This document shows positions 16,985 to 24,927 of a stretch of 64,000 nucleotides of DNA, one piece after another. The notes under the pieces are model-generated. The model was not told the DNA's origin, made no database searches, and worked only from the letters and a program-made list of their open reading frames with translations. The translations under genes were made by a program, and so were the position numbers. Numbering within the stretch: position 1 is the stretch's first letter; the number at the start of each line of letters is the position of its first letter. This DNA comes from Halobacteriovoraceae bacterium. GTDB lineage: Bacteria > Bdellovibrionota > Bacteriovoracia > Bacteriovoracales > Bacteriovoracaceae. The stretch is taken from NCBI GenBank assembly GCA_002711995.1, contig PASN01000018.1:62001-126000 (forward strand), written 5' to 3'.

Positions 16985-18631
16985 TTACACTTCCTTAATT
17001 GGCTCACGACCCACTGCATCTCTTGTGATGTTGTCTATTAAGTCAAACACAACCTTGATCATGTTTTGTCCATCATAGAACGATAGGAGGTTGCTTTGAG
17101 TGATTTCCAAAATATTGGCACCCTTTGCGTTGGCCTTGTTTACAAAGAAAAAGTCGACAATTGGAGTTAATAGAGGAAATGTCTTCTTAGTGACAGTGCA
17201 CAACTGGTCAATTTCTCCCATTTTGTTGATGTTGTCTTGAATTACTTTAATATTTGGTTGCTCTTTTTTGGCTTCTTCGATGACAGCGTTGGAATATTTC
17301 ATTCCAAAACCATAAAGCTCATATATATAGCTGCAGCCTTTGGCGTACTCTGACAACGTAGCTAGTGACTCTTTGCCGAGTTCAGGTATGGCGTAGTTTA
17401 ATTCCTGCTCTTTAAAGTAGAAGGACCAAACAATTTTATAAAAGGTCTTAAACACGTCCTGAACTGTTTGTGCCGACTCTGTGATATCTATGAGATCCAT
17501 ACCCATTTCTGAAAAGTGAGGCGCAAAAATTGCGACATTTTGTAGGTAGAATGGGGAAACTTGCTCTTTGAAAAACGTGGAGTCGAAGTTTTCTTGATTA
17601 AGAATACCTTTAACCAGCCTGCTAACCAGTTGGTGCGATATATCCTTATGGCATGGCAAGAGTTCGCACTTCTCCTGAACCTTACAAGGAAAGCACTTTC
17701 TCTTTGGAGCAAGGTTTAAAACATTTTCATGATAAGGAGTTGTTTCACTCGGCCTAACTGTTCCCATGGATAAAACAATTGTTGGAGTTTGGGACACTGC
17801 TGCCAGGTGGGAAACCATAGAGTCATGGCAAACCAATAGTTTGGCATCGCTTACCAGCCGAAAGGTTTCCTCTATAGAAGATTTCCCAGTCATATTGTGG
17901 ATGCGCTTGGAGAACTCGCCAAGTGCGGGTGAGTTTACAAGTTTTTCAGCTTGTGTTTGATCTGCTTTTCCACCAACAACGTATAGCTCTTGTTCTGGGT
18001 TTTCCTTTAGGACTTTATAGCAAAGATCAACCCACTTATTTACACCCCAGTGCTTCTTTTTAGACGATGCAAAAGGGTGAATGACAATCTTGTCTTCTCT
18101 GGTTTTTTCTTTGTATTCAGGCGAGAAGCTCTTCGCTCCAAGAATATTTTTAAAGAGATCAACAAGATTAAAAGGGATGGACTCAGAGTTCATCACAGTG
18201 GAAAATACATACTGAGACCAACTGTCTTCAATAGATATTTGGTTTTGGCTGTTTCTGGTAAGTCCAAGCTTGTGACGTGCTTCGATCATACTGGCCAGGT
18301 ACTCGGAGCTTTTACTGAAGCTTAAATTAACCAAAACATCAAAGTCCAACTTGTTTAAGTCTGTGACAAGATCTTTTACAGAGTTCCTTGCCTCCATTAG
18401 TGTGGATGAAGGCGATTTAATAAAGTCTTTAATTTCAATAAAAACCATGTGAGAGAAGACTTCATCGAGTAAAAAATGAAGACCTTGGGCAAACTCTTTT
18501 CTAGCAACCAAGGTAAGCTCAACGTTGGGGTTTTCAATTTTTAACTGTTTGGCCGCTTGGTAGGTTTGAATTACATCGCCAATTCTAGTTAACTGAATAA
18601 TTCCAATTGAGGTGCTTTTATTTCCTGACAT
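16985..18631 (-). CDS. glycosyltransferase family 9 (heptosyltransferase-like) with helical C-terminal extension
   Basis: Residues 1-350 have the GT9 pattern: GIIQLTRIGDVIQTYQAAKQL at the N-terminus (the xxRIGDVxxxxP-type loop), IHPFASSKKKHWGVNKWVDL, VVGGKADQ, and KLLVCHDSMVSHLAAV. The CFPC...C...CHKDI cysteine cluster common in ADP-heptose transferases follows. About 190 helical residues follow that I cannot assign. The ATG at 18631 is preferred because a perfect GAGGAGG ribosome binding site lies just upstream; a TTG six codons earlier has none. Placed between filament assembly genes and a Maf-type gene, it may glycosylate flagellin rather than LPS. This is inference. Confidence 0.85.
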   Translation of the reverse strand: MSGNKSTSIGIIQLTRIGDVIQTYQAAKQLKIENPNVELTLVARKEFAQGLHFLLDEVFSHMVFIEIKDFIKSPSSTLMEARNSVKDLVTDLNKLDFDVLVNLSFSKSSEYLASMIEARHKLGLTRNSQNQISIEDSWSQYVFSTVMNSESIPFNLVDLFKNILGAKSFSPEYKEKTREDKIVIHPFASSKKKHWGVNKWVDLCYKVLKENPEQELYVVGGKADQTQAEKLVNSPALGEFSKRIHNMTGKSSIEETFRLVSDAKLLVCHDSMVSHLAAVSQTPTIVLSMGTVRPSETTPYHENVLNLAPKRKCFPCKVQEKCELLPCHKDISHQLVSRLVKGILNQENFDSTFFKEQVSPFYLQNVAIFAPHFSEMGMDLIDITESAQTVQDVFKTFYKIVWSFYFKEQELNYAIPELGKESLATLSEYAKGCSYIYELYGFGMKYSNAVIEEAKKEQPNIKVIQDNINKMGEIDQLCTVTKKTFPLLTPIVDFFFVNKANAKGANILEITQSNLLSFYDGQNMIKVVFDLIDNITRDAVGREPIKEV

Positions 18632-18761
18632 TTGGAGCCTCCTCTTCAAGGAGAGAGGTTAAGAACAGAAGGGTCATATCTTCTTTGGATATATTCAACT
18701 CACTGCTGTTCTTTTTTTGAAGTTCGTTCATTGCTTTGTGAATTTCTTCCTGAATACTCAC
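18618..18761 (-). CDS. small overlapping gene, 47 residues
   Basis: A short frame bridges the two GT9-type genes. It starts with GTG at 18761, sharing one base with the upstream stop (TAGTG), after an AGAGGAG ribosome binding site, and ends at 18618, overlapping the start of the next gene by 14 bases. The product (beginning MSIQEEIHKAMNELQ) is a charged amphipathic helix with no known family. Close packing and the ribosome binding site argue that it is translated, perhaps to couple the two genes. Confidence 0.5.
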   Translation of the reverse strand: MSIQEEIHKAMNELQKKNSSELNISKEDMTLLFLTSLLEEEAPNVRK

Positions 18762-20344
18762 TAGAGCTCCTCTTGAGTCCTTTTTTCTGCACTGTTTTCG
18801 CTAAGTAGGTCCTCAAATATACTGGTTAATAGTTTAAAATCGCCCTTTAGGGTAAATAGGCTTGCCTCAATATCTTCCAAGTTCTTTGAAAAGTCTGTTG
18901 AAGTGATATTTTCAACGGACGCTTCAAACAAGGAAATAGCAGCCTGAGGAAGGATATCCTCCTTTCCAAGCGCCATTAGGTTTTCCATATACTGAAGAAA
19001 TCTTGGTGCATTTTTGGTGGACTGCTTTACGCTTTGAAGAGATCTAAGAGTTGCCAATAATGTTTTAACACATTCAGTAAGCTCTTCCTTTGCCTGGGAA
19101 GCATAGGATACAAGCTCATCTCGGCTAGTCCCTTCTTGTAGGCTTTTAATAAGCTCTTGGTCTGGCTCATATCCCATAAGAGCGTAATGGTAGCTTCTTG
19201 AAACATGATAGTTCAGTTCTTCTTTAAGGTTCATTTCCCCTCTGATGAGAGTTTTGAAAAAACCTAGTTCATCTTTAAGTCTTGAGTAAACTTTGTTGGC
19301 ACTATTTTTAACTCCCATTGGAAGAACTGTCTGATTCTCTTGATTCAGCAAGAAGTAAATATCGTCAGCGGTATGATTGGAGTCAAGTTCTTGAATTACG
19401 AAAGACCCGTCTTTAAAAGTTCTCGATATCTCTCCCTTGCATACAGTCTCAATAATATTTGCGTCAATCGCCTCAGCAAGAGCACATATCCTGTTTGGTC
19501 TTGTAATTAGCCAGTCAAGGTTTGCCAAAACGGATGGAGCTGCGGTTATGTCCATGTTTACAGAGATTAAATTATTGTTGAACTGTCTATTGAGTTCATT
19601 AACGATCTGTTTTTCTTCATGGGAGCCATTGGTAAGAAGAACTGGTTTGTACTCAAAAGAGCTCTCCATTGTTTCAACCATGTCAGCAAGAGTTTCAATT
19701 TTAAAAGAATTTCCAGACTTGCTTTCAGTCAAATTAATGCCAACAACTATGGCACCTTGTTCTCCATTCTTGCTGGCCCTTATCCTTGCAAAGTTTTGAT
19801 TGGCAACCATTGAGAAGTCTTGGCCCATTCTTATTCTTTCGCAGTCATTATGCATAGGGGTCAGAGCGCTATGGTGAAAACAAGTTTGGGGTTCAATCTG
19901 GGTTTCACCACTTGCTGGTCTAAAATAGTTTGCGTAGGAAGACCAGCGATCACTCGTGGAGACGCTTCCGTAGTTGGTAATATGGGATCCGGCGATCTCC
20001 TCAGTTTGTAAAAGAGGAATTAAGTGAGCTGATATTTGATCGTTTCCAAAGTTTACAACCTTGCTCCACTCTGTTGACATAACTACGGATAGAGAATCAG
20101 CAAGGGTGTTGAGAGCAAAGGCGTCAGAATAAAGAGCTCCACTTTTTAAATGCTCTATTTTAAACCTGTCTATTGTGAAGACATTCCTCGCATCTTTGAT
20201 TAATTTGGCACTGGACTCAAGGTCGGCAAATGTAAGAATGGAAATCTCACAGTGTGGATTTTCCTTTGCAAGTGATGTAACCAAATGGCTTGATTGCAAA
20301 AGGTTTGTTTCATCTTTAAGACATGTAACCAAAATATTCTTCAT
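18761..20344 (-). CDS. degenerate GT9-type glycosyltransferase with helical C-terminal extension
   Basis: The 527-residue protein has the same layout as the GT9 gene downstream: a two-domain Rossmann-like N-terminal part (MKNILVTCLKDETNLL at the start; VVGINLTESKSGNS...KPVLLTNGSHEE as the sugar-nucleotide half), then about 180 helical residues. The usual HDSxxxHLAA motif is replaced by ITRPNRICALAEA, so it may be catalytically different or inactive. I chose the ATG at 20344 (ribosome binding site AAAGGT); a longer frame upstream runs into the preceding gene. It lies 4 bases after the Maf-like gene, and the two GT9 genes may have arisen by duplication. Confidence 0.75.
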   Translation of the reverse strand: MKNILVTCLKDETNLLQSSHLVTSLAKENPHCEISILTFADLESSAKLIKDARNVFTIDRFKIEHLKSGALYSDAFALNTLADSLSVVMSTEWSKVVNFGNDQISAHLIPLLQTEEIAGSHITNYGSVSTSDRWSSYANYFRPASGETQIEPQTCFHHSALTPMHNDCERIRMGQDFSMVANQNFARIRASKNGEQGAIVVGINLTESKSGNSFKIETLADMVETMESSFEYKPVLLTNGSHEEKQIVNELNRQFNNNLISVNMDITAAPSVLANLDWLITRPNRICALAEAIDANIIETVCKGEISRTFKDGSFVIQELDSNHTADDIYFLLNQENQTVLPMGVKNSANKVYSRLKDELGFFKTLIRGEMNLKEELNYHVSRSYHYALMGYEPDQELIKSLQEGTSRDELVSYASQAKEELTECVKTLLATLRSLQSVKQSTKNAPRFLQYMENLMALGKEDILPQAAISLFEASVENITSTDFSKNLEDIEASLFTLKGDFKLLTSIFEDLLSENSAEKRTQEEL

Positions 20345-20348
20345 TATT

Positions 20349-21002
20349 TTACCTTTTAGAGTTTTGTTTAGCTGAATTAACAACAGCATCAAGAACAAAG
20401 TATGCGAAGTCCCTAGTGTCTTTTAATGCGCCTGCTGTTCTAGCTGAGTTCAATGCCTGGTCAACACTGCCATCCTTAATTGGAAAAAAGGATTTGGCAG
20501 CTTCAGAAAGAAGGGAGCTATAGTCTTGCATATTCTGTTTGGCCTTGAAGGTTAAGAATCTTCTATAGAAGTCTTTGCTTAGATTAAAGCTTGTCTCATG
20601 TCGAAGAATCGCTGGTCTTCGACTCAAAAACATCACAAACTCAATACTGTTGTATAAGTCATTCACATCGCATGCGTGTAAGACTTCAATGTTTGGATTG
20701 CTAAAGCCGCCTGCATGATTGTGCATCTGAACCAATTCTTTATTTGGCTCAATGACTATGATTCTGTAGTTCTCATGATATTTAGCAGCAAGGTTGGCAA
20801 CTTCTTCGCAGTGATAGCCAAACCCTAAACCAAGTATGAGAATATAGGGTTTCTTTTTGATAGAGTCTTCGTAATTGGTGGCAAACGCTTGGGCCTCTTT
20901 TTCAGGATTGTAGATTGAGTGCAGGTGCACACCGTCGACTACTGGTACGGAATGGCCGGTTCTTGATTGTTTTAGTTCAATCGTTGCGTTGAGTTCTTCC
21001 AT
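20349..21002 (-). CDS. Maf/DUF115-type flagellin-modification protein (N-terminal domain type)
   Basis: The 217-residue product has a Rossmann-like segment: a strand-loop YILILGLGFGYHCEEVA followed by RIIVIEPNKELVQ. It is preceded by PVVDGVHLHSIYNPEKEAQAF. This matches the start of motility accessory factor (Maf, DUF115) proteins, which transfer nonulosonic acids to flagellin, but the usual 500-residue C-terminal remainder is missing. It could be a short family member or an interaction domain. Position directly after the fliT-like gene and before the two glycosyltransferases fits flagellin glycosylation. Confidence 0.65.
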   Translation of the reverse strand: MEELNATIELKQSRTGHSVPVVDGVHLHSIYNPEKEAQAFATNYEDSIKKKPYILILGLGFGYHCEEVANLAAKYHENYRIIVIEPNKELVQMHNHAGGFSNPNIEVLHACDVNDLYNSIEFVMFLSRRPAILRHETSFNLSKDFYRRFLTFKAKQNMQDYSSLLSEAAKSFFPIKDGSVDQALNSARTAGALKDTRDFAYFVLDAVVNSAKQNSKR

Positions 21003-21790: not shown

Positions 21791-23182
21791 TTAACCTAAT
21801 TGCTGGACAGGGTTAAAACCGCCACCGGTCATACCCGCAAGTCCAGAACCTTGTGATTTTATTCTTGATATAGTTTCTTCAAGTCTTGCAAATTTTGCTT
21901 TGAGAACTCTTTCTTTCTGATCGATCTGTCTCTGCTTGTTTTCAATTCTTCGATCAATCTGTTTTATTTTACTGTTTAACCCCTCTTTCCTGGAGGTAAG
22001 AGTGCCCGAAGGTCTTTTTAAGGCTCCATTCACAACACCTTCAAGGTTGTCGATAAAGCCATTGATTTTGCCATTTTCTATTGTGTATATCCCTGCAATA
22101 ATTTGGGACACCTCTTTATAGTTCTTCTCCAAGGCGACCTTGAATTTATTTTCATCAAGTTCGATAAGCCCGTTTCTTTGAAATGTTAGCCCGAGATCTC
22201 CAATTCTTCTTGGGCCAAAGTCTGTCTTTATTGTGGCGAACATTGCGTTTCTAACTCTGGATTCAATGGTCTGCAATGTAATGTCCCCGCCCAGTGTTCT
22301 CGAGGTGTCGGTGGTTTCATCCATTGCGTTTTGCTCTTTTATAAAGGAAAGAACGTCATTGATGCTCTTAACGATATCCTGCATTTTTCCAGCGATCTTT
22401 CCAACGTCTTCCACAATTTCGATCGTTATTTCTTCACCTGGCTTGGCCTTCTTTAAATCAAGCGTCACGCCTGGAATCAGCTCAGTTGCCTGATTGGTGG
22501 GCAATTCAATTTCAAAGCCATCAAGCTTCACTTTGGCATCCTGAGCGTCACGGTGAGAGTCAAACCAAATATCTACTTCACCGTCCACCAAATAAAGGTT
22601 GGGAAAGATTGCTTTGTTTTCATCGCCTGTTTCTTCAAGTGAGATGATAAGCTTCCACGGCTCGTCAGTTCCGTCTCCGGAGTTTACGACATTTGCTCGC
22701 ATTCCATTTTCACTATCTCGGTTAATTAGCTTGGCGATTCCTGAAAGAGAGGAATGCTCTTGATCTACATAAATCTCTTTCTCTTCACCGTTTGGCAGTT
22801 CATAAGTAATATAGCCAACTCCAAGGTAGGTGTTGTCTTTGTCTTCGACACCGTTGGAAATTGCTGAAGACTTTTGCGCCAACTGGGTGACCTCTATTTG
22901 ATAGGTTCCAGGTTCTGCAAGGTTTTTGTCCACGTTGGCGGTAATGTTGTCACCACCGACATTAATGGCCAATTCACGAAAACTTCTGTCACCCTTGTTT
23001 GCGTATATGTTGCCTTTGAGTTTCTCAACTCGTTGGGTGAGATCCGCAAGCAAGGCCTTCTTGCTGTTGATCTTGTCTTTCTTCTCGTTCATTTTTTGCA
23101 AAGGAATTTTTTCAGCAGCGATAAGCTGCTCGACGATATTTTTTGGCAGTCCTGAATTTATTGAACCAAAAGATATGCCCAA
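21791..23182 (-). CDS. fliD: flagellar filament cap protein FliD
   Basis: FliD caps the growing filament. The N-terminal block ISFGSINSGLPKNIVEQLI with the later KIPLQKMNEKKDKINSKKALL, the middle GTYQIEVTQLAQKSS, and the C-terminal coiled coil (KIKQIDRRIENKQRQID, KAKFARLEETISR) are typical. A GAGGAAAAT ribosome binding site sits 5 bases before a TTG at 23182. That start gives MGISFGSINSG, the usual FliD beginning, so I prefer it to the upstream in-frame GTG at 23221 or ATG at 23212. The product is 463 residues. The sigma-28 promoter lies about 200 bases upstream, with a terminator hairpin between. Confidence 0.92.
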   Translation of the reverse strand: MGISFGSINSGLPKNIVEQLIAAEKIPLQKMNEKKDKINSKKALLADLTQRVEKLKGNIYANKGDRSFRELAINVGGDNITANVDKNLAEPGTYQIEVTQLAQKSSAISNGVEDKDNTYLGVGYITYELPNGEEKEIYVDQEHSSLSGIAKLINRDSENGMRANVVNSGDGTDEPWKLIISLEETGDENKAIFPNLYLVDGEVDIWFDSHRDAQDAKVKLDGFEIELPTNQATELIPGVTLDLKKAKPGEEITIEIVEDVGKIAGKMQDIVKSINDVLSFIKEQNAMDETTDTSRTLGGDITLQTIESRVRNAMFATIKTDFGPRRIGDLGLTFQRNGLIELDENKFKVALEKNYKEVSQIIAGIYTIENGKINGFIDNLEGVVNGALKRPSGTLTSRKEGLNSKIKQIDRRIENKQRQIDQKERVLKAKFARLEETISRIKSQGSGLAGMTGGGFNPVQQLG

Positions 23183-23298: not shown

Positions 23299-23327
23299 TT
23301 AAAAAAGGCCTTCCATAAGGAAGGCCT
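23299..23327 (-). terminator. intrinsic terminator upstream of fliD
   Basis: Reading leftward: AGGCCTTCC (23327-23319), loop TTAT, GGAAGGCCT (23314-23306), with a T run beginning at the stem base and continuing to 23301. It is a textbook intrinsic terminator for minus-strand transcription. It lies downstream of the sigma-28 promoter and upstream of fliD, and no minus-strand protein gene ends here. Confidence 0.75.
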
Positions 23328-23373
23328 AGGATTAGGATTTGGGTTGGGATTTTAGTTCAAGTTGTGAACTGTA
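23299..23373 (-). ncRNA. candidate sigma-28-dependent small RNA or fliD-operon attenuator
   Basis: Starting about 7 bases after the sigma-28 -10 element, the minus strand encodes a hairpin AGTTCA-N5-TGAACT (23354-23370) and a C-rich single-stranded linker with UCCC, CCC and two UCCU runs (23328-23353). A 9-bp GC-rich stem with a six-T tail ends the unit at about 23299. The whole, about 75 nt, has the layout of a bacterial trans-acting RNA; the C-rich linker could pair with Shine-Dalgarno sequences. Alternatively it is a conditional terminator in the fliD leader. Confidence 0.5.
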
Positions 23374-23379
23374 CTAATT

Positions 23380-23406
23380 TTATCGGTTATTATGGATAAA
23401 GCTTTA
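23380..23406 (-). promoter_or_regulatory. sigma-28 (FliA) promoter of the fliD operon, inside the start of the divergent gene
   Basis: On the minus strand: TAAA (23406-23403), exactly 15 bases, then ACCGATAA (23387-23380), 7 of 8 matches to GCCGATAA. The -35 element lies within the first codons of the plus-strand membrane-protein gene that starts at 23392. Confidence 0.8.
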
Positions 23407-24927
23407 TCAAAAAAGTCAGACTTTCTGAAAATAAAGTCCAAATTCTTTATAAATCGGCTAGTTACCTACTTTTCTTTTCTTCTGGTTCCTATATGGTTGC
23501 AGAAAACTGTTCAATTAAATTTATTTTTTCAATCCTTAACACTGCTTCTCTATATGTTCTTTATGCTCGGGCAGTGGTATCTGCTTGGCAAAGAAATTGA
23601 TCACAGATTAAAAATCTATTACCGGGCAAATTCTTCCATGGACCGGATCATCTATAGAATTTTGAGCGGCAATATCTTTATAATTTTATTTTTCAATATT
23701 TTACACCTAATGCCCTACCAAGTGGCGACGTTTGGCTTTTGGGTTTTCTTTGTCTCCATAGGACTCTTTTACTCATGGCCAACTAGAGGAAAAATCATTG
23801 AAGAGTCTATGGCCGGTCAATTTGGAGAATTTAGATTTTTAGACAACTTTGAACGAACAGTTCTAATAATGATTACTGCAATGTTTCTAGTTTCTCTTCC
23901 TGAATTGCCACTTTTCCAAAATATTGAAGCTTTAAAGCTTTACTTTGATCCAAGGGAGCAGGTCCACTCAATTATATGGAATTTTCTTTCGGTTAACTAC
24001 CTTCCTTTTGATAAATATCCAAAGCTTTTTAACCTTGCTTGGAGCTTTCATTTCTACGTTTATGGAATAGGAATCTTTTTATTGGCCTTCTATTGTGTTC
24101 TGCGATTTTTCTTTGCAAGAAGGCTAGCTATCCTTGGCGTGTTTGCTGTGGTTTCCTCTTGGTCTTTCTCGAGGATTTTAGCTGAGGATTTTCTGGCAAG
24201 CTATACTCACACTTTTCCATTGCTTTTTGTCTGGGCGCTGTTTTGGAGCTCTAAGAGCTCGACCTATAGAAGTGGACTGCTTACTGGTTTAGTCTGTGCC
24301 CTAGGTGCGATGATTAATGTCAATTATGCTTTGTTGTTTCCAGCGATGCTAGTAGGGATGCCTATGCTGTTTTCAAAGACAAAAACAGCTTGGTACAGGA
24401 AACAATGGCTCAAGTACAATATCTTGGGCGGCATCATTTTGTTGGCCGTGGTTTTCTCCCACTCAGAAACAGCATTTGTTTTCGAGCCTTTTGAAACTAA
24501 AAAAATAGGCGAGATGTTTGCGACATTCTTCACCCGAAAGGCCTTTTACTCGGTTGGGGTCATTGGGGCCTTGATGACTGGAGTATACTTGTTTAGAAAA
24601 AAGGGCAATGCTCACTCTAGCGTAAGCTTTGATCAGTCGAAAGTGTCCGAAATGGGCTTTTGTCTATTCTTATTTATGGGCCTTTCAATATTGGTTAACC
24701 CACTATTTGTTTCAAACTTCACCGCTATGTGGATTCTAACCGTATTCAGTCTGGTTCCGTTGGAATGGATCTTTCAATCGATAAGCAGGCTTAGAAGTAA
24801 AAGAAATCTAATTTACGTGCTTTATATTCTGGTATGCCTTTTGGATTCTCACTTTGAGGGCAGGGTGAGAATTATAGGAAAGATGTTTCTTGAGGACGAA
24901 ATCTTTAAGTACATAAACCAGATATAA
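23392..24927 (+). CDS. polytopic membrane protein, unknown function
   Basis: The 511-residue product has roughly ten hydrophobic segments spread over its length and a basic N-terminus. The long loop between the early and middle helices contains EFRFLDNFERT and FDPREQVHSIIWNFLSVNYLPFD. I do not recognise a family; the general shape resembles lipid-linked-sugar or polysaccharide membrane enzymes, but no diagnostic motif is seen. There is no Shine-Dalgarno site before the ATG. Its 5' end holds the sigma-28 promoter of the opposite strand, so strong flagellar transcription could interfere with its expression. Confidence 0.75.
   Translation: MDKALSKKSDFLKIKSKFFINRLVTYFSFLLVPIWLQKTVQLNLFFQSLTLLLYMFFMLGQWYLLGKEIDHRLKIYYRANSSMDRIIYRILSGNIFIILFFNILHLMPYQVATFGFWVFFVSIGLFYSWPTRGKIIEESMAGQFGEFRFLDNFERTVLIMITAMFLVSLPELPLFQNIEALKLYFDPREQVHSIIWNFLSVNYLPFDKYPKLFNLAWSFHFYVYGIGIFLLAFYCVLRFFFARRLAILGVFAVVSSWSFSRILAEDFLASYTHTFPLLFVWALFWSSKSSTYRSGLLTGLVCALGAMINVNYALLFPAMLVGMPMLFSKTKTAWYRKQWLKYNILGGIILLAVVFSHSETAFVFEPFETKKIGEMFATFFTRKAFYSVGVIGALMTGVYLFRKKGNAHSSVSFDQSKVSEMGFCLFLFMGLSILVNPLFVSNFTAMWILTVFSLVPLEWIFQSISRLRSKRNLIYVLYILVCLLDSHFEGRVRIIGKMFLEDEIFKYINQI

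Follow-up and report, generated by a model that had tools for sequence, protein, structure and literature searches.

The window, a 64,000-nucleotide stretch of a genome from the Bacteriovoracaceae (Halobacteriovoraceae), carries on its minus strand the filament-cap gene fliD (21791-23182; Pfam FliD_N/FliD_C), whose Shine-Dalgarno (SD) sequence AGGAGG is followed by TTG GGC, and on its plus strand a divergent gene for a 511-aa membrane protein that matches no Pfam or NCBIfam entry (23392-24927). In 116 of 119 loci a homologue of the latter is transcribed divergently from fliD; the protein is possibly part of the flagellin glycosylation cluster. Downstream of the fliD, fliS and fliT-like genes, at 16985-21002 on the minus strand, a GT9 glycosyltransferase and two proteins without Pfam match probably serve flagellin glycosylation. 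Between the two divergent genes, at minus-strand positions 23406-23301, a sigma-28 promoter is followed by a 5' hairpin, then a C-rich linker and finally a strong intrinsic terminator; from this arrangement an RNA of about 75 nt is predicted. No minus-strand gene ends at that terminator, as had been pointed out originally.

The promoter (23406-23380, minus strand) is of the sigma-28 (FliA) type, TAAAG-N15-CCGATAA, with the full sequence TAAAGCTTTATCCATAATAACCGATAA. The exact pattern TAAAG-N15-CCGATA has one match in 64 kb against 0.03 expected, and the start codon of the divergent membrane-protein gene (23392-23394) falls within the promoter, so that the original prediction of a sigma-28 promoter within the first codons of this gene holds. 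It resembles the attack-phase consensus of Bdellovibrio bacteriovorus, TTAAG-N16-CCGATA (PMC3627812), and TAAAG...CCGA recurs at the same place in 84 distinct relatives, with CCGA 20-21 nt from TAAAG. A conserved TAGTA at 23376-23372 marks the expected transcript start at about 23375; a start in this stretch had been anticipated near 23373, and only its position shifts. Further strong sigma-28-type promoters (TAAAG/TTAAG..CCGA..TAGTA) sit directly before open reading frames (ORFs) elsewhere in the Bacteriovoracaceae (L231, L232, L234, L235 and L238), which suggests that the FliA regulon of this family may be wider than flagella, as in Bdellovibrio.

From the conserved TAGTA to the U tract, the predicted RNA (23375-23301, minus strand) folds at -21.8 kcal/mol, compared with -8.6 for shuffled sequences (z -5.6). 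It opens with a 6-bp hairpin, AGUUCA-CAACU-UGAACU (23370-23354), continues with a single-stranded, C-rich linker (23353-23328) and closes with the intrinsic terminator AGGCCUUCC-UUAU-GGAAGGCC(U) followed by a U tract (23327-23301), in which the stem occupies 23327-23306 and the T run extends to 23301. The terminator stem comprises 9 bp, 6 of them GC, and has the most pairs among 13 terminator-like matches in 10 kb. All three parts of the architecture proposed at the outset are thus recovered. No Rfam family, leader or riboswitch reached the gathering threshold for the element, and an E-value search returned chance-level scores. We also discarded a CsrA-sponge RNA of the CsrB/RsmZ type, which needs several GGA hairpin loops: GGA occurs just once in the window RNA, at the edge of the terminator loop, and its orthologues lack repeated GGA loops.

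Of 108 fliD loci in the family, a hand count finds the promoter-RNA-terminator unit ahead of the gene in about 90 and not in about 18. Across the 84 distinct sequences, the TAAAG-N15-CCGA spacing is identical in 76; the promoter is followed by a TAGTA-like start, then a hairpin, an unpaired stretch and the terminator, and the orthologous RNAs measure 61-99 nt (median 79). The terminator loop contains CCC in 51 of the 84 RNAs, the window's own loop having none. For comparison we divided the sequences into group A, the clade of the window; group B, the genus g37 and its neighbours; and group C, the rest. The 5' part of the RNA folds at a mean z of -2.5 over the 84 RNAs, and compensatory changes support its helix. 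Among 13 group B sequences, 95% of the cells are paired versus 50-64% in slid controls, both sides have changed in 5 of 8 pairs, and the covariation score is reached by none of 500 shuffles; the group A alignment, with fewer sequences, points in the same direction. The covariance check proposed for the two-hairpin element is in this way borne out for the 5' helix.

The Bdellovibrio setting of the original prediction has to be given up. The organism belongs to the Bacteriovoracaceae/Halobacteriovoraceae, and Bdellovibrio genomes, including G130 (3,782,950 bp, the length of strain HD100), have another gene upstream of fliD and lack the element there. Our RNA model R1 finds nothing in G130 at an E value of 1 or better, and homology to a Bdellovibrio attack-phase RNA was rejected on these grounds. 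Additional low-E-value R1 matches (for example, G000:C14:296166, in the genome of the window) are other sigma-28 promoters before ORFs and not copies of the RNA.

This conservation bears on two readings in which the RNA itself would matter little. A chance or decaying promoter beside an ordinary terminator, devoid of function, would fit a promoter pattern that is merely enriched genome-wide (47 matches versus 27 in the control) and an RNA whose expression is predicted only. Conservation across dozens of genera, the covariation and the kept order of promoter and terminator, however, make such an accident hardly credible. The second reading places the function at the level of DNA or in cis: sigma-28 polymerase would interfere with the divergent membrane-protein gene, or the RNA would be antisense to the leader of that gene, with the RNA as a by-product. 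The promoter does overlap the divergent start codon in the window and in many relatives, and the divergent partner is nearly always there. Yet the promoter is kept where the overlap with the ATG is gone (L085, L091 and L102), and the hairpin covariation, together with the linker-flagellin matching described below, needs a function at the RNA level; we regard an effect in cis alone as very unlikely.

Downstream of the terminator, fliD has a predicted promoter of its own (23264-23237, minus strand), composed of TTGCAT (23264-23259), a 13-nt gap and the extended -10 element TGCTAACCT (23245-23237). The -35 element was identified by visual inspection of groups A and B, and 80 of 84 loci have the -10 pattern TGnTAnnnT between terminator and fliD, against 9.6 expected from shuffles, mostly 40-99 nt ahead of the start codon. 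The original prediction had left a choice between a small RNA and a conditional leader of the fliD operon, in which sigma-28 transcripts would be attenuated at the terminator and read-through would yield late fliD mRNA. Promoter, terminator and fliD do share one orientation, and the distance from terminator to fliD is modest, at about 90-340 nt. Against a leader stand the conserved fliD promoter, the lack of any Rfam leader or riboswitch at threshold and the lack of an apparent antiterminator: complementarity of the 5' part to the terminator arm scores 3.70, the same as for shuffles (3.70). Because fliD has its own conserved promoter and an antiterminator is missing, the predicted terminated RNA is a separate, stand-alone unit and not a fliD leader, and fliD has a putative start of its own; of the two options the small RNA is favoured, and attenuation appears improbable.

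Two side observations concern the fliD leader. The TTG start (23182-23180, minus strand) is used in nearly all family members, which suggests that fliD translation may be tuned down. Just upstream of the SD AGGAGG, GTGCGCAGGATGCGTGC (23221-23205, minus strand) folds into a hairpin whose loop contains GGA, a CsrA-like double site; hairpins of this kind are present in 37 of 84 fliD leaders against 5.2 expected, and csrA is present in the genome of the window at C2:41119.

The original prediction had further proposed that the C-rich linker could pair with ribosome-binding sites, an idea that the comparison of relatives supports and makes more specific. The target search covered flagellar neighbourhoods and flagellins. 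Generic anti-SD pairing to all flagellins was rejected, with a mean z near -0.7 and no clear signal before one paralogue, distinguished by a leader ORF, was separated from the others. This one flagellin paralogue has seeds that co-vary with the RNA and stood at or near the top of pairing in three group C genomes. A leader ORF of five to six codons, typically M-x-x-G-D-stop, precedes 42 of 43 target flagellins and ends 1-4 nt before the flagellin ATG, as in ATG ATT CGA GGA GAT TAG T ATG GGT, in which the flagellin begins at the final ATG. The leader-ORF set consists of L128 (G000:C10, about 22540) and its relatives L241-L270, and other flagellin paralogues have the leader ORF MYNDGA-stop.

Linker and flagellin have changed in matched fashion between genera, as in CUCGAAUC/GAUUCGAG, CUCUAAUC/GAUUAGAG, CCUAGAUU/AAUCUAGG and UCCUAGAAU/AUUCUAGGA. 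In genus g4 it is the 5' hairpin loop, AUCCCAUACU, that is complementary to AGUAUGGGAU at the flagellin start, and L056 has ACCCAUUA as its 5' loop and UAAUGGGU in the mRNA. Exceptions are genus g18, in which the usual seed is missing, and L093, with a mismatch. Within group B, the same flagellin orthologue, again with a short leader ORF, pairs best in 7 of 7 genomes, and the conserved linker UAGAC is complementary to GUCUA(UGGG); within group A, the leader-ORF flagellin pairs best in 6 of 8. In the genome of the window the best flagellin, C10:22554, has the leader ORF MYVGD-stop, and the linker segment AUCCUAAUC (23338-23330, minus strand) is complementary to GAUUAGGAU over 9 bp that cover the leader stop and part of the ATG.

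Upstream of the target flagellins a sigma-54 consensus was found in 0 of 43 cases, and sigma-54 control of the target was rejected. Sigma-28-like promoters precede part of the set only; degenerate sigma-28-like elements (TCAAG-N16-CCGT and similar) were seen at L253, L241 and L265, and several flagellin leaders contain a repeated short hairpin with CACGGT.

Over 43 own sRNA-flagellin pairs, the longest perfect match averages 7.77 nt, compared with 6.40 for swapped partners and 5.75 for shuffled RNAs. The own pairing energy exceeds that of a reversed-target control by only some 2.3 kcal/mol (-20.1 versus -17.8). Group C taken alone gives permutation p values of < 0.0002 for the match and 0.0004 for the energy. 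When each of 13 genera contributes a single pair (G030 added), own pairs reach 7.9 nt and -19.0 kcal/mol, and swapped pairs 6.2 nt and -16.3 kcal/mol (median permutation p < 1/300). Swap tests within group A, group B or genus g4 alone were not significant. In the genome of the window, the 9-bp flagellin match is marginal by itself (p 0.043), and the duplex energy gives p 0.38. Across 42 genomes the flagellin outpairs the fliD of the same genome (-20.4 versus -14.4, p 6e-7), where the target flagellins of groups A and B were chosen among paralogues after the energies had been seen, with group B giving one orthologue throughout. In group A the order is slightly reversed, fliD pairing at -19.4 and flagellin at -17.8, which makes fliD quite possible as a second target in this group.

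The fliD start deserves consideration as the main target in group A, in which case the same sigma-28 small RNA would act there as a brake on the adjacent filament-cap operon. In the window, linker CCCAAAU (23343-23337, minus strand) is complementary to AUUUGGG of the fliD start. Linkers of group A, for instance TACCCAA...AATTCATCCT, are complementary to the fliD SD and the TTG-GGT start (mean z -2.6 relative to shuffled linkers), L004 and L016 share the 10-nt match AATTCATCCT/AGGATGAATT with fliD, and in L022 the GGG of the fliD start and the ACCCAA of the linker have been lost together. Among genes near fliD in 11 genomes, those for FliS, FliD and flagellin rank high for pairing, much of this being due to strong SD sequences. 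Once SD strength is controlled by shuffled RNAs, however, the fliD mean z drops to -0.6; groups B and C give no fliD signal (mean z -0.4 and -0.5), and flagellin pairs far better there (-20 and -21 versus -12 and -14 for fliD). We consider it unlikely that fliD is the main target in group A. As a universal target fliD was rejected, its signal being strong in group A alone, and so was a general rule of C-rich loops facing a fliD TTGGG start, as CCC loops are also kept in loci whose fliD start lacks GGG.

Our preferred reading is that the element encodes an independent small RNA of about 75 nt that depends on sigma-28 and acts in trans, pairing with the translation start of one flagellin and lowering its translation; on present evidence we judge this probable. 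Promoter, terminator, conservation, hairpin covariation, the separate fliD promoter and seed-target co-variation between genera are all seen at the level of sequence. That the RNA is made, that the pairing happens, that its effect is repression and that the target in the window's own genome is the flagellin G000:C10:22554 is what we infer from them. When FliA is active, the RNA would be transcribed and would stop at its own terminator, with fliD transcribed from the separate promoter further downstream. The linker, and in some genera the 5' hairpin loop, would then base-pair with one flagellin mRNA in the region where its translation begins, across the leader codons, the flagellin SD and/or the start codon. 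Ribosome loading would be blocked and less of that flagellin made, giving a brake on supply within the sigma-28 stage. Repression would be the simplest effect because the paired sites cover the leader codons, the SD and/or the start codon, and the sigma-28-like promoters of some target flagellins would make the RNA a feed-forward brake. A bolder extension, which we put forward only tentatively and think rather doubtful, is a family-wide, Hfq-free circuit of predatory bacteria in which two antisense sites, the 5' loop and the linker, pair across the leader ORF and the start of the flagellin. The RNA would then control reinitiation of translation at the leader instead of simply masking the SD, and would thereby set the ratio of flagellin paralogues in the filament.

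Base-pairing small RNAs are poorly understood in bacteria without Hfq, and Hfq (PF17209) was not found in the genome of the window, which is 96% complete, whereas control genomes gave matches. A predicted target backed by co-variation between genera makes a concrete test available. The RNA also points to a leader ORF on flagellin mRNAs that is both unusual and conserved, and it bears on the choice among many flagellin genes when these bacteria swim to their prey. We found no paper on small RNAs of Bacteriovorax-like predators, and comparison is therefore with better-studied systems.

In B. bacteriovorus HD100, 3 of 8 attack-phase small RNAs have a FliA promoter, and merRNA is a 445-nt c-di-GMP-riboswitch RNA (PMC3627812). 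These are likewise small RNAs of a predatory relative, but the window RNA has no riboswitch and R1 retrieves nothing from G130. CsrA-FliW control of flagellin is post-transcriptional and protein-based (PMC4894983), whereas the window RNA would act by base pairing, the fliD leader nonetheless having CsrA-like hairpins. The Escherichia coli RNAs MotR, FliX, UhpU and FlgO are sigma-28-dependent and adjust flagellin and flagella number, FliX lowering fliC; they originate from UTRs, bind Hfq and base-pair within the coding sequence of fliC (PMC10578931). Unlike them, the window RNA is intergenic, has its own promoter, comes from a genome without detectable Hfq and is predicted to pair at a translation start.

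The closest parallels in logic are these E. coli RNAs and, in Campylobacter, FlmR and CjNC1/CjNC4. In C. jejuni, FlmR (CJnc170) is FliA-dependent and shortens flagella when overexpressed, and FlmE (CJnc230) is processed from flgE mRNA and targets flgM (PMC11187230); we found no sequence link to either. CjNC1 and CjNC4 of thermophilic Campylobacter are sigma-28-dependent flagellar non-coding RNAs, paralogues of about 44 nt that repress in an Hfq-independent manner in an E. coli reporter and are predicted by conservation to pair with sigma-54-dependent flagellar 5' UTRs (PMC4626219). Like them, the window RNA has a sigma-28-type promoter and a predicted flagellar mRNA target; unlike them, it is single, longer and two-hairpin, its flagellin target lacks a sigma-54 consensus, and no Rfam match links them. 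With a FliA/sigma-28 promoter, an intrinsic terminator and co-varying complementarity to flagellar mRNA (weak in group A), the element would in kind be a sigma-28-dependent flagellar base-pairing small RNA, drawn from a new sequence family.
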